Assembly: GCA_021324185.1 (NCBI GenBank)
Contig: JAJPJN010000076.1
Span: 1-64,000, forward strand
Reading direction: 5' to 3'
From: Terriglobia bacterium
Lineage (GTDB): Bacteria > Acidobacteriota > Terriglobia > Bryobacterales > Bryobacteraceae
Length of the DNA: 64,000 bases
This document shows, piece by piece, positions 61,017 to 63,477 of the stretch. Below the pieces are notes generated by a model that saw nothing but the letters and a program-made list of their open reading frames with translations, was not told where the DNA came from and ran no database searches. Each line of letters opens with the position of its first letter. Positions within the stretch are counted from its first letter, which is position 1. A program made the position numbers and the translations under genes.

Positions 61017-62156
61017 ATGAGCAGCCGTACGCGTACGTTTTGGCGGCAAATGACCGATGGCATCGCCATCCAGCAACTCTGGCATCAGTTTCAAAGCGAT
61101 GCCCGGGCCAGCTACCGGCTGTACTCGAGTGAGATCGATCAGGCGCCGCTCGGCAAAGAGAGCCGCCGCAACCACTTCAAGCGAGTGGTCCGCGGGCTCT
61201 TCTGGGCCATGGTGTTGAAACTCTCCCCTGCCCGCCGTGTGCTCTTTGTCCTCGCGCTCGTTCTTCTCGTCTTCCCGGGATTCGACGTGCAAACCAGAAG
61301 CGTCGAAGTGCAAGTGCCGAATCTCGCCTTCTTCGGTGGACTCATACTCGTAATCCTCTTCGCCCTGGAACTGGCCGACCGCGTCACCATGAAGCGCGAT
61401 CTCGAAATTGCAAAAGAGATCCAAAGCTGGCTGATGCCCGACGCCGCGCCCCAGGTGGACGGCATAGAAATCGCTTTCGCCACCCGCCCCGCCAACACCG
61501 TCGCCGGCGATTACTACGATGCCTTCCTACGCCCCATAACGGCAGACTGCAGCGCCCAGGATCAGTCCCTGATTATCGTCGTCGCCGATGTCGCCGGCAA
61601 GAGCGTTCCCGCAGCCTTGCTGATGGCAACCCTCCGGGCCAGCCTCCGCACGCTCGCCGGTGTCTGTCACAACCTGGTCGACCTCATGGAGCGCCTCAAT
61701 CGCTACTCCTGCGAACAAAACGTCGGCCGCCAGCGGTTCACCACCATCTTCATCGCTGAATTTCACCCACGCACGCGCCGGCTCGTCTACATCAACGCCG
61801 GTCACAATTGGCCCGTACTGCGGCGCGCCTCCGGAGCAATTGAGCGGCTGGAAACTGGCGGTCTGCCGATCGGCATTATGCCGGTTACGCATTACGAGTG
61901 CGGTGAATGCATGCTGAATCCCGGCGACCTGCTCGTCATCTTCACCGACGGCCTCGTCGAGGCCGAAAACGACAATCAGGAAGAGTTCGGAGAGGCGCGC
62001 CTGCTCGCCTGCCTCAACAACAATCCCGTCACAAGCGCGAGCAACGTGCTAAATAACCTGATGACGTTCGCCGATCAATTCGTCGCTACCGCTCCCCAGC
62101 ACGACGACATCACCTGTCTGGTTATGCGCCACGCCGGCCTTGCCGCAGCAGGATAG
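61017..62156 (+). CDS. SpoIIE/PP2C-type serine phosphatase, membrane-anchored
   Basis: Start ATG 61017 is chosen; GTG 61002 is possible, with GGAGG 16 nt before it. The 379-aa product has two membrane helices (about residues 75-120: VLFVLALVLLVFPGF and LAFFGGLILVILFALELA), then a PPM phosphatase of the RsbU/SpoIIE class: EIAKEIQSWLMPDAAPQVDG, VAGDYYDAF, VVADVAGKSVPAALLMATLR with metal-binding D, NAGHNWPVLRRA and LVIFTDGLVEAEN. Such enzymes act in anti-sigma partner-switching or other Ser/Thr signalling. A TPR-sensor-like gene follows after 25 bp. Confidence 0.92.
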   Translation: MSSRTRTFWRQMTDGIAIQQLWHQFQSDARASYRLYSSEIDQAPLGKESRRNHFKRVVRGLFWAMVLKLSPARRVLFVLALVLLVFPGFDVQTRSVEVQVPNLAFFGGLILVILFALELADRVTMKRDLEIAKEIQSWLMPDAAPQVDGIEIAFATRPANTVAGDYYDAFLRPITADCSAQDQSLIIVVADVAGKSVPAALLMATLRASLRTLAGVCHNLVDLMERLNRYSCEQNVGRQRFTTIFIAEFHPRTRRLVYINAGHNWPVLRRASGAIERLETGGLPIGIMPVTHYECGECMLNPGDLLVIFTDGLVEAENDNQEEFGEARLLACLNNNPVTSASNVLNNLMTFADQFVATAPQHDDITCLVMRHAGLAAAG

Positions 62157-62181
62157 AATAAGCATCTCTCTAGGAGCTGCA

Positions 62182-63477
62182 ATGCCGGACAAAAAAACCT
62201 GCTTCGTCGTGATGGGGTTCGGAAAGAAAACCGACTACCAGACCGGGCGCGTGCTGGATTTGGATAAATCCTACAAGAACATCATCAAGCCGGCAGCCGA
62301 AGCAGCAGGCCTCGATTGCAAGCGTGCCGACGAGATCGTTCATTCGGGCACCATCGACGTCCCCATGTATGAGCAACTGCTCTCGGCAGACGTCGTCGTC
62401 GCCGACGTTTCCACCTACAACCCGAACGCGTTCTATGAGCTCGGTGTCCGCCACGCCCTGCGGCCTTACACCACCATCACGATCGCCGAAGACAAGATGA
62501 CCTTCCCCTTTGATATCGGCCACATCGCTGTCCGCAAGTATCATCACATGGGCGAGGGCATCGATTTCGACGAAGTAGAACGGATGAGAGCCGAGCTCAA
62601 AAACGCCATGGAGACGATTCTTTCGAAAACGCCAGAGAAGGATAGTCCCATCTACACCTTTTTTTCCGATCTGGAGCCGCCCATGCGCAAAAAGCTTCAG
62701 CAGGCGATCGCCGAGTCAGCTCCCGCCGCCATGGCCGCGCCCGCTCCGGCTTCCACCGCCGCCACCACCCCGAGCCCCACCATGAGCATGCTCATGGAGC
62801 AGGCCGCCGCCGCTATGGCGCGAAGTGATTGCTCCGCCGCCAAGGCGCTCTACACAGCCGCCCGTACGCTCGCGCCCAACGATCCGTTTGTCGCGCAGCG
62901 CCTGGCCTTGGTCACCTACAAATCGCACTGCGAGGAGCCCATGCGGCCGCTGCAGGAAGCCGCCGCCATCTTGGAAGAGCTCTCTCCTGCAACTTCAACC
63001 GATACGGAAACCCTCGGCCTCTGGGGTGCCGTCCACAAACGCATGTGGGATGTGCGAAAGCAAAAAGAGGATCTGGACACCGCCATCAGCGCCTACGAAA
63101 AAGGCTTCTACTTAAAAAACGATTACTACAACGGCATCAATCTGGCATTTCTCTATGACGTGCGCGCTTCCACTACCTCGGGCAACGAAGCCATCGCCGA
63201 TGCCGTCATGGCCCGCCGCGTCCGCCAGCGCGTCCTAAGTATCTGCGAGAATTTTTTGTCCGAACGCAGCACCTTGCGCCCGGACGACGAATATTGGGTC
63301 TTAGCCACCATGGCCGAAGCCTACGCCGGAATCGGTGACAAATACAAGGCCGAGCAGTTACTCAGCAAAGCCAAAGCGCTGAATCAGCCGGACTGGATGC
63401 TGGAGAGCACCAACACCCAGCTCGCGAAACTGAATGCGTTGCTCGCCACCGGACCTCTACCGGTGCCGGCTCAATAA
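62182..63477 (+). CDS. Protein with deoxyribosyltransferase/TIR-like N-terminal domain and TPR-S-like repeats
   Basis: TAGGAG lies a few nt before ATG 62182 and decides the start (431 aa). Residues 1-165 start KKTCFVVMGFGKKTDYQTGR and contain VPMYEQLLSADVVVADVSTY and NAFYELGVRHALRPYTTITI. This Rossmann-like pattern resembles nucleoside deoxyribosyltransferase/TIR-like nucleotide-acting domains (D-x-S, N-x-x-YE-x-G). An A/P-rich linker (about 195-225) leads to TPR-type repeats resembling the TPR-S/TRAFs-binding sensor domain known from conflict systems. No enzyme activity is proven. Its 3' end overlaps the convergent FG-GAP gene by 21 bp. Confidence 0.82.
   Translation: MPDKKTCFVVMGFGKKTDYQTGRVLDLDKSYKNIIKPAAEAAGLDCKRADEIVHSGTIDVPMYEQLLSADVVVADVSTYNPNAFYELGVRHALRPYTTITIAEDKMTFPFDIGHIAVRKYHHMGEGIDFDEVERMRAELKNAMETILSKTPEKDSPIYTFFSDLEPPMRKKLQQAIAESAPAAMAAPAPASTAATTPSPTMSMLMEQAAAAMARSDCSAAKALYTAARTLAPNDPFVAQRLALVTYKSHCEEPMRPLQEAAAILEELSPATSTDTETLGLWGAVHKRMWDVRKQKEDLDTAISAYEKGFYLKNDYYNGINLAFLYDVRASTTSGNEAIADAVMARRVRQRVLSICENFLSERSTLRPDDEYWVLATMAEAYAGIGDKYKAEQLLSKAKALNQPDWMLESTNTQLAKLNALLATGPLPVPAQ

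Follow-up and report, generated by a model that had tools for sequence, protein, structure and literature searches.

A TIR/deoxyribohydrolase-like TPR-S protein of a Terriglobia bacterium as a candidate component of TIR-signalling conflict systems, next to an apparently unrelated SpoIIE phosphatase gene

The protein P0001 of a Terriglobia bacterium joins an N-terminal domain of the DRHyd/TIR-like type to a TPR-S half and retains the predicted catalytic residues of its family. On balance, we lean slightly toward regarding it as part of TIR-signalling conflict systems, in which it would cleave NAD or nucleotides under the control of a messenger; its usual partner is missing here. Its relatives in other genomes are linked to TIR genes, and the pairing with the SpoIIE-type phosphatase gene found directly upstream is not conserved.

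The window analysed is the whole stretch of 64,000 nucleotides. The two ORFs that a sequence-only reading had placed on the + strand with a 25 bp gap were confirmed at 61017-62156 and 62182-63477, the gap extending from the phosphatase stop to the ATG of P0001. The first gene encodes a phosphatase of 379 aa (P0002), and its identification as SpoIIE/PPM-type is corroborated by PF07228 (E 4.9e-50), the match covering profile positions 2-191 of 192; in addition, two hydrophobic stretches in its sequence fit a membrane protein. The second gene encodes P0001, a DRHyd/TIR-like - TPR-S protein of 431 aa as judged from Pfam, alignments A1 and A3 and a structural model with a pLDDT of 83.3. Direct reading of the sequence revealed a Shine-Dalgarno-like AGGAG (62172..62176, + strand) located 5 nt 5' of the ATG at 62182, a start that is also supported by the fact that homologues begin at the same place. 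No terminator-like site was found on the + strand between the two genes. The gene 3' of P0001 encodes an FG-GAP repeat protein on the opposite strand, and the ends of both genes overlap. The host genome assembly amounts to 4.7 Mb, and with a G+C content of 0.586 the P0001 gene is unremarkable within the window (0.577).

Residues 2-147 of P0001 (62185..62622, + strand) correspond, according to VIA-align and PADLOC, to a predicted TIR/deoxyribohydrolase-like alpha/beta domain. The domain was modelled from 18 sequences with a pTM of 0.82. In VIA-align the closest solved fold was DNPH1 (8rpt; Z 13.8, rmsd 2.4, 125 aligned), followed by SfSTING (7un8; Z 13.5), MilB (4ohr; Z 12.3) and solved nucleoside 2-deoxyribosyltransferase structures (Z 11-12), and the best Foldseek matches were MilB, a CMP N-glycosidase, and TIR-STING. 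Identity in the structural alignments with DNPH1, MilB and TIR-STING was about 10-22%. The nucleotide-type fold anticipated from the sequence alone is borne out by the matches of the model to these three proteins, a nucleotide-binding fold being present in the structure predictions. Furthermore, the N-terminal sequence profile finds Rcl/DNPH1 (E 0.0005) in an alignment that matches up the YELG motif, and the PADLOC TIR effector profile matches residues 28-125 of P0001 (E 7.6e-10) as well as 19 of the 20 aligned members. A Pfam search of the domain returned neither Nuc_deoxyrib_tr (PF05014) nor TIR, and PF05014 gave no match up to E 10.

The residues named earlier are present in P0001 as D75-V-S77 and N82-A-F-Y85-E86-L-G88. 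In a family set of 100 sequences, composed of P0001, 19 A1 rows and the genes of 80 loci and including a few duplicates, R48, D75 (codon 62404..62406, + strand), N82 and G88 are invariant, E86 is replaced in a single sequence, and position 85 is Tyr in 96 sequences and Phe in four. E86 (codon 62437..62439, + strand), which is thus Glu in 99/100, is the predicted catalytic Glu based on its alignment with the YELG Glu of DNPH1/Rcl, which we take to be the catalytic residue of DNPH1. The modelled core alpha/beta fold together with the YELG-type Glu would place the N-terminal domain of P0001 in the TIR/DRHyd/SLOG Rossmannoid class. A report on Thoeris describes a Tyr near the catalytic Glu in deoxyribosyltransferases, DNPH1 and one ThsB class (PMC11204291).

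A flexible Ala/Pro-rich linker (residues ~164-195, 62671..62766, + strand; pLDDT <50 at 164-168 and 175-195) separates this domain from a TPR-S / MAP3K-TRAF-binding-like helical region at residues 199-422 (62776..63447, + strand), assigned from PF20308, PF13281 and the ASK1 structure 5ulm. The TPR-S repeats proposed previously were recovered in the profile check, PF20308 (TPR-S) exceeding its cut-off of 27.6 bits with 90.1 over residues 217-324 and PF13281 (MAP3K_TRAF_bd) its cut-off of 24.1 bits with 45.1 over residues 267-414, while no NCBIfam family was above cut-off for P0001. The domain assignment is not a chance similarity, since both profiles are matched by all 20 members of A1 and the four invariant residues are kept throughout the family sequences.

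When the full model was compared with VIA-align, the central regulatory region of ASK1 (5ulm) came out on top (Z 18.7, rmsd 2.8, 206 residues), other TPR proteins following at Z 15.6 and below. An ASK1 cryo-EM chain (8qgy) was aligned over 9-431 with 344 residues (Z 15.8) at an rmsd of 18.7, a value that probably indicates that both domains match but are placed differently. The same chain is the top Foldseek match of the full model (E 3.7e-7) and was also reached by the N-terminal model alone (E 6.4e-3). The family sequence profile also matches 8qgy (E 3.3e-25), a score owed almost entirely to the TPR half; the N-terminal part is colinear, with FYHLGVR in ASK1 aligned to FYELGVR in the family, and is not significant alone. 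The N-terminal domain of ASK1 is a thioredoxin-binding domain that contacts the TPR domain (PMC10972558), and parts of the ASK signalosome are stated to derive from bacterial conflict systems (PMC8195603, citing Burroughs and Aravind 2020).

The P0001 family is widespread and mobile. Homologues, mostly distant or partial, were detected in 72 of 200 genomes of the taxonomic family and in 11 of 17 genomes of the genus, its own included. A search of the genome contig collection with P0001 alone found no relatives, and one with the subfamily alignment returned 296. For the best 80 of these 296, the family profile is matched from the beginning in every case; they belong to Acidobacteriota, Bacteroidota, Bacillota, Pseudomonadota, Verrucomicrobiota and Planctomycetota. 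Relatives were also located by tblastn on 81 plasmid records, 39 of them typed as conjugative; in 41 of the 81, coverage of the query reached at least 80%. Plasmid modules come from E. coli, Klebsiella, Pseudomonas, Acinetobacter and other hosts. Eight of the 81 records were examined; seven have a TIR gene nearby, and the eighth carries no gene annotation. The gene order TRAFs-binding gene - TIR - TIR - DUF4231 (SLATT), with a recombinase alongside, is shared by an E. coli IncP plasmid (NZ_CP147111.1, L203) and a Klebsiella plasmid (NZ_CP142977.1, L210), and in the Klebsiella record the module sits beside integron genes with a Tn3 transposase next. The environmental E. coli plasmid pKMi029_2 has such a module in its annotation, with a TRAFs-binding gene, TIR genes and a SLATT gene. 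The viral contig collection yielded six relatives. There were 48 matching phage records, none exceeding 80% of the query, and the 10 phage matches listed cover the N-terminal part only; genes of Streptococcus, Staphylococcus and Klebsiella phages resemble this domain and lack TPR-S among the matches listed. A blastn search of E. coli with a Pyrinomonadaceae gene found nothing, a DNA search not being that far-reaching.

The neighbours of the relatives point in the direction of conflict systems. Of the 80 loci, 25 have a TIR gene at a distance of up to 1.5 kb, compared with 4 of 97 control ORFs taken from the same contigs more than 4 kb away, and 22 have a same-strand TIR gene within 300 bp; these counts are approximate, as the TIR genes were found by phmmer with queries from the same loci, and they were cross-checked by Pfam tallies. 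In the latter, ThsB_TIR was matched by 14/43 upstream and 6/35 downstream same-strand neighbours and patatin by 4/43 and 8/35, respectively, after removal of 10 Algoriphagus loci per alignment, which reduced the upstream set from 53 to 43 and the downstream set from 45 to 35. PADLOC ThsB profiles matched up to 11 of the 43 upstream neighbours. Within 1.5 kb, patatin genes were found in 16, SLOG-like genes in 9 and SLATT genes in 4 of the 80 loci, so that 38 loci have at least one of the four neighbour types, TIR included, and 42 have none. Neighbour clustering gave a similar picture, patatins and ThsB-like TIR proteins each occurring in 17 loci, followed by SLOG-like, SLATT and TPR-S-patatin proteins; in partner proteins with a TPR-S of their own, the further domain is an alpha/beta hydrolase, a trypsin or a patatin. 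In the tree, one clade with a support of 99, comprising Bacillota, Bacteroidota, Planctomycetota and one Acidobacteriota member, has a TIR neighbour in 16 of 17 cases, while over the whole tree the TIR-neighbour label shows only weak clustering, its 8 changes being equalled or undercut in 38 of 500 shuffles. The connection of the family to conflict systems, already suspected from the sequence, is supported by these TIR, patatin, SLOG-like and SLATT neighbours of the relatives. A Pyrinomonadaceae locus (L110:3850-12517, the same region as L154) presents a longer row consisting of TIR-like, SLOG-like, ThsB-like TIR and DRHyd-TPR-S genes, and then a membrane protein, a short TIR-like protein and a TPR-S-patatin; the DRHyd-TPR-S and the TPR-S-patatin were assigned by Pfam, the others by eye and phmmer.

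The sequence-only reading had also proposed that the SpoIIE phosphatase might work together with the TPR-S protein in a signalling or defence module under phosphatase control, naming in advance a lack of conservation of the pair as the observation that would speak against it. The common strand, the short gap and the lack of a terminator-like site between the genes favour such a module, but the conservation check came out against pairing, and we consider the proposal very improbable. A SpoIIE gene lies near only one of 104 distinct other loci of P0001 homologues, a set composed of 28 loci from genome searches (1/28) and the 80 loci described above (0/80), with four shared, and the single case is unrelated, convergent and differently arranged. 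In the 80-locus set up to 8 kb per side was inspected; contig ends cut some loci, at least 1.5 kb being available on both sides in 68 of them. In the reverse direction, close relatives of the phosphatase occur in 22 of 200 genomes of the taxonomic family, its own included (E<=1e-60), and none of the 12 orthologue loci fetched has a P0001-type gene beside it; nor does any other neighbour family recur beyond two of these 12. One family genome (G084) carries orthologues of both genes, 64% (P0001) and 66% (phosphatase) identical, on different contigs. Moreover, the genome of P0001 contains 11 SpoIIE matches, one gene apparently being split over two frames, and chance adjacency is therefore unremarkable. 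On the favourable side, a genome of the same genus (G101; L041:11491-12765) has a GAF-SpoIIE gene 22 bp downstream of a distant DRHyd-TPR-S paralogue, in convergent orientation; a large WD40 protein with a TIR-like start, judged by eye, is encoded upstream at that locus. The partnership was thus rejected, and the phosphatase at 61017-62156 looks like a chance neighbour outside the system, the pair representing an ordinary adjacency. A protein phosphatase 2C gene on a Neorhizobium plasmid (L208:8696-9179) and a TIR-linked homologue are 3.5 kb apart on opposite strands; the phosphatase gene probably belongs to a separate system.

Two other explanations concern P0001 itself. According to one, P0001 has been left behind as an orphan by such a conflict module and has lost its regulation. 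This would agree with the single TPR-S match in its genome and with the lack of an adjoining TIR gene, a SpoIIE gene taking its place. P0001 falls in a clade (support 99) separate from the TIR-rich one, together with genes of G084, G182 and G196. Only the G084 gene has a TIR neighbour, a TIR_2 gene 5 bp upstream, with a convergent SLATT gene downstream; no TIR, patatin, SLOG or SLATT neighbours were seen in the window or at the loci of G182 and G196, which hold two of the three closest orthologues of P0001. However, the ORF of P0001 is intact and keeps the predicted catalytic and TPR-S signatures, and the G182 and G196 genes are likewise intact without a partner. Additionally, seven TIR_2 matches and one ThsB_TIR match were found elsewhere in the genome, and action of P0001 in trans is therefore possible. 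We regard loss of regulation as rather unlikely. In a genus-mate (G157:C245:16232-16312), an 81 bp stretch shares 67% identity with P0001 residues 5-31 and is perhaps a remnant. According to the other explanation, which we also find doubtful, P0001 is a housekeeping or domesticated DNPH1-like, nucleotide-sanitising N-glycosidase on a TPR scaffold that is not tied to conflict. DNPH1 being the closest solved fold and the 42 loci devoid of the four neighbour types are in its favour. The same applies to 11 Algoriphagus loci (L165, L166, L176, L177, L180, L181, L186-L188, L190 and L191) with conserved, housekeeping-looking neighbours of vertical appearance, which suggests a domesticated role of the gene in that genus. 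Nevertheless, the patchy distribution of the family over phyla, its presence on plasmids and transposons and its repeated linkage to TIR, patatin and SLATT genes argue against this explanation.

For the preferred reading, that of a messenger-gated component of TIR-signalling systems, we infer the substrate, messenger, gating, outcome and anti-phage role of P0001 by analogy with Thoeris and the TIR-DRHyd-SLOG class, from which the scheme of a messenger acting through TPR-S on the N-terminal domain is derived. The members of this class are viewed as NAD- or nucleotide-cleaving enzymes and sensors (PMC9503650). A small messenger would come from a TIR enzyme, the gene of which often adjoins those of the relatives. 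The TPR-S half would serve as a switch that binds the messenger and releases or orders the enzymatic domain. The latter, a predicted TIR/deoxyribohydrolase-type N-glycosidase, would probably cleave NAD+ or a nucleotide through E86, and upon infection nucleotide depletion or further signalling might lead to growth arrest. In favour of this reading are the domain make-up and predicted folds, the conserved predicted catalytic residues and the linkage of relatives, the G084 orthologue and the plasmid copies among them, to TIR genes. Points against it are the missing TIR, patatin, SLOG and SLATT neighbours of P0001 and of the G182 and G196 genes, the 42 loci devoid of all four, the Algoriphagus loci and the negative Pfam result for the N-terminal domain. 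In its own genome, P0001 may take the signal in trans from the TIR proteins encoded there, or it may be an orphan copy. More speculatively, TIR plus DRHyd-TPR-S could constitute a Thoeris-like anti-phage module of plasmids and transposons, from which the N-terminal half of ASK1 could have descended, retaining the switch but with loss of the catalytic Glu; we offer this idea tentatively, as a possibility that is not the likeliest one.

The term TPR-S was reportedly introduced by Burroughs and Aravind in 2020 (J Bacteriol), who are said to have predicted that it senses NAD-derived signals and to have already predicted the architecture and role of such TPR-S proteins. Among the titles and abstract openings of the literature surveyed, a set without that 2020 study, no ThsB/TPR-S pair and no experiment on TPR-S appeared. 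We believe that the main value lies in the family, which offers a small module, linked to TIR genes and carried on conjugative plasmids, for direct trial in laboratory E. coli. The sensor half has as its closest solved relative, among the structures compared, the human stress kinase ASK1. A ligand of TPR-S would test the proposal of NAD-derived signals and give a concrete ligand for ASK1, and, if the descent of the ASK1 half is true, ASK1 might still respond to an NAD-derived small molecule.

Compared with Thoeris, the similarity lies in the ThsB-type TIR genes that adjoin many relatives of P0001. However, none was found beside P0001 itself, and the second component is DRHyd-TPR-S instead of a SIR2-SLOG or TM-macro ThsA, no ThsA-type domains of either kind being detected in P0001 by Pfam. 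With DNPH1/Rcl, MilB and bacterial TIR-STING, P0001 shares the N-terminal fold and the YELG Glu, but its domain is fused to TPR-S and is distant from them at the identity given above. ASK1 (MAP3K5) has the same order of a Rossmann-like domain followed by TPR. It differs by its kinase, PH and SAM domains, P0001 ending at 431 aa with no Pfam kinase match after the TPR region, and by a His at the position of the bacterial family's predicted catalytic Glu, in a part of the alignment that is weak and not significant alone. Finally, P0001 resembles the TPR-S proteins of conflict systems in its TPR-S domain and in the link to NAD-type enzymes (TIR, DRHyd), with effector domains (patatin, trypsin, alpha/beta hydrolase) residing on partner TPR-S proteins, but it adjoins a SpoIIE phosphatase and has no TPR-S/TIR partner nearby; it is a sound new member of this previously predicted family.
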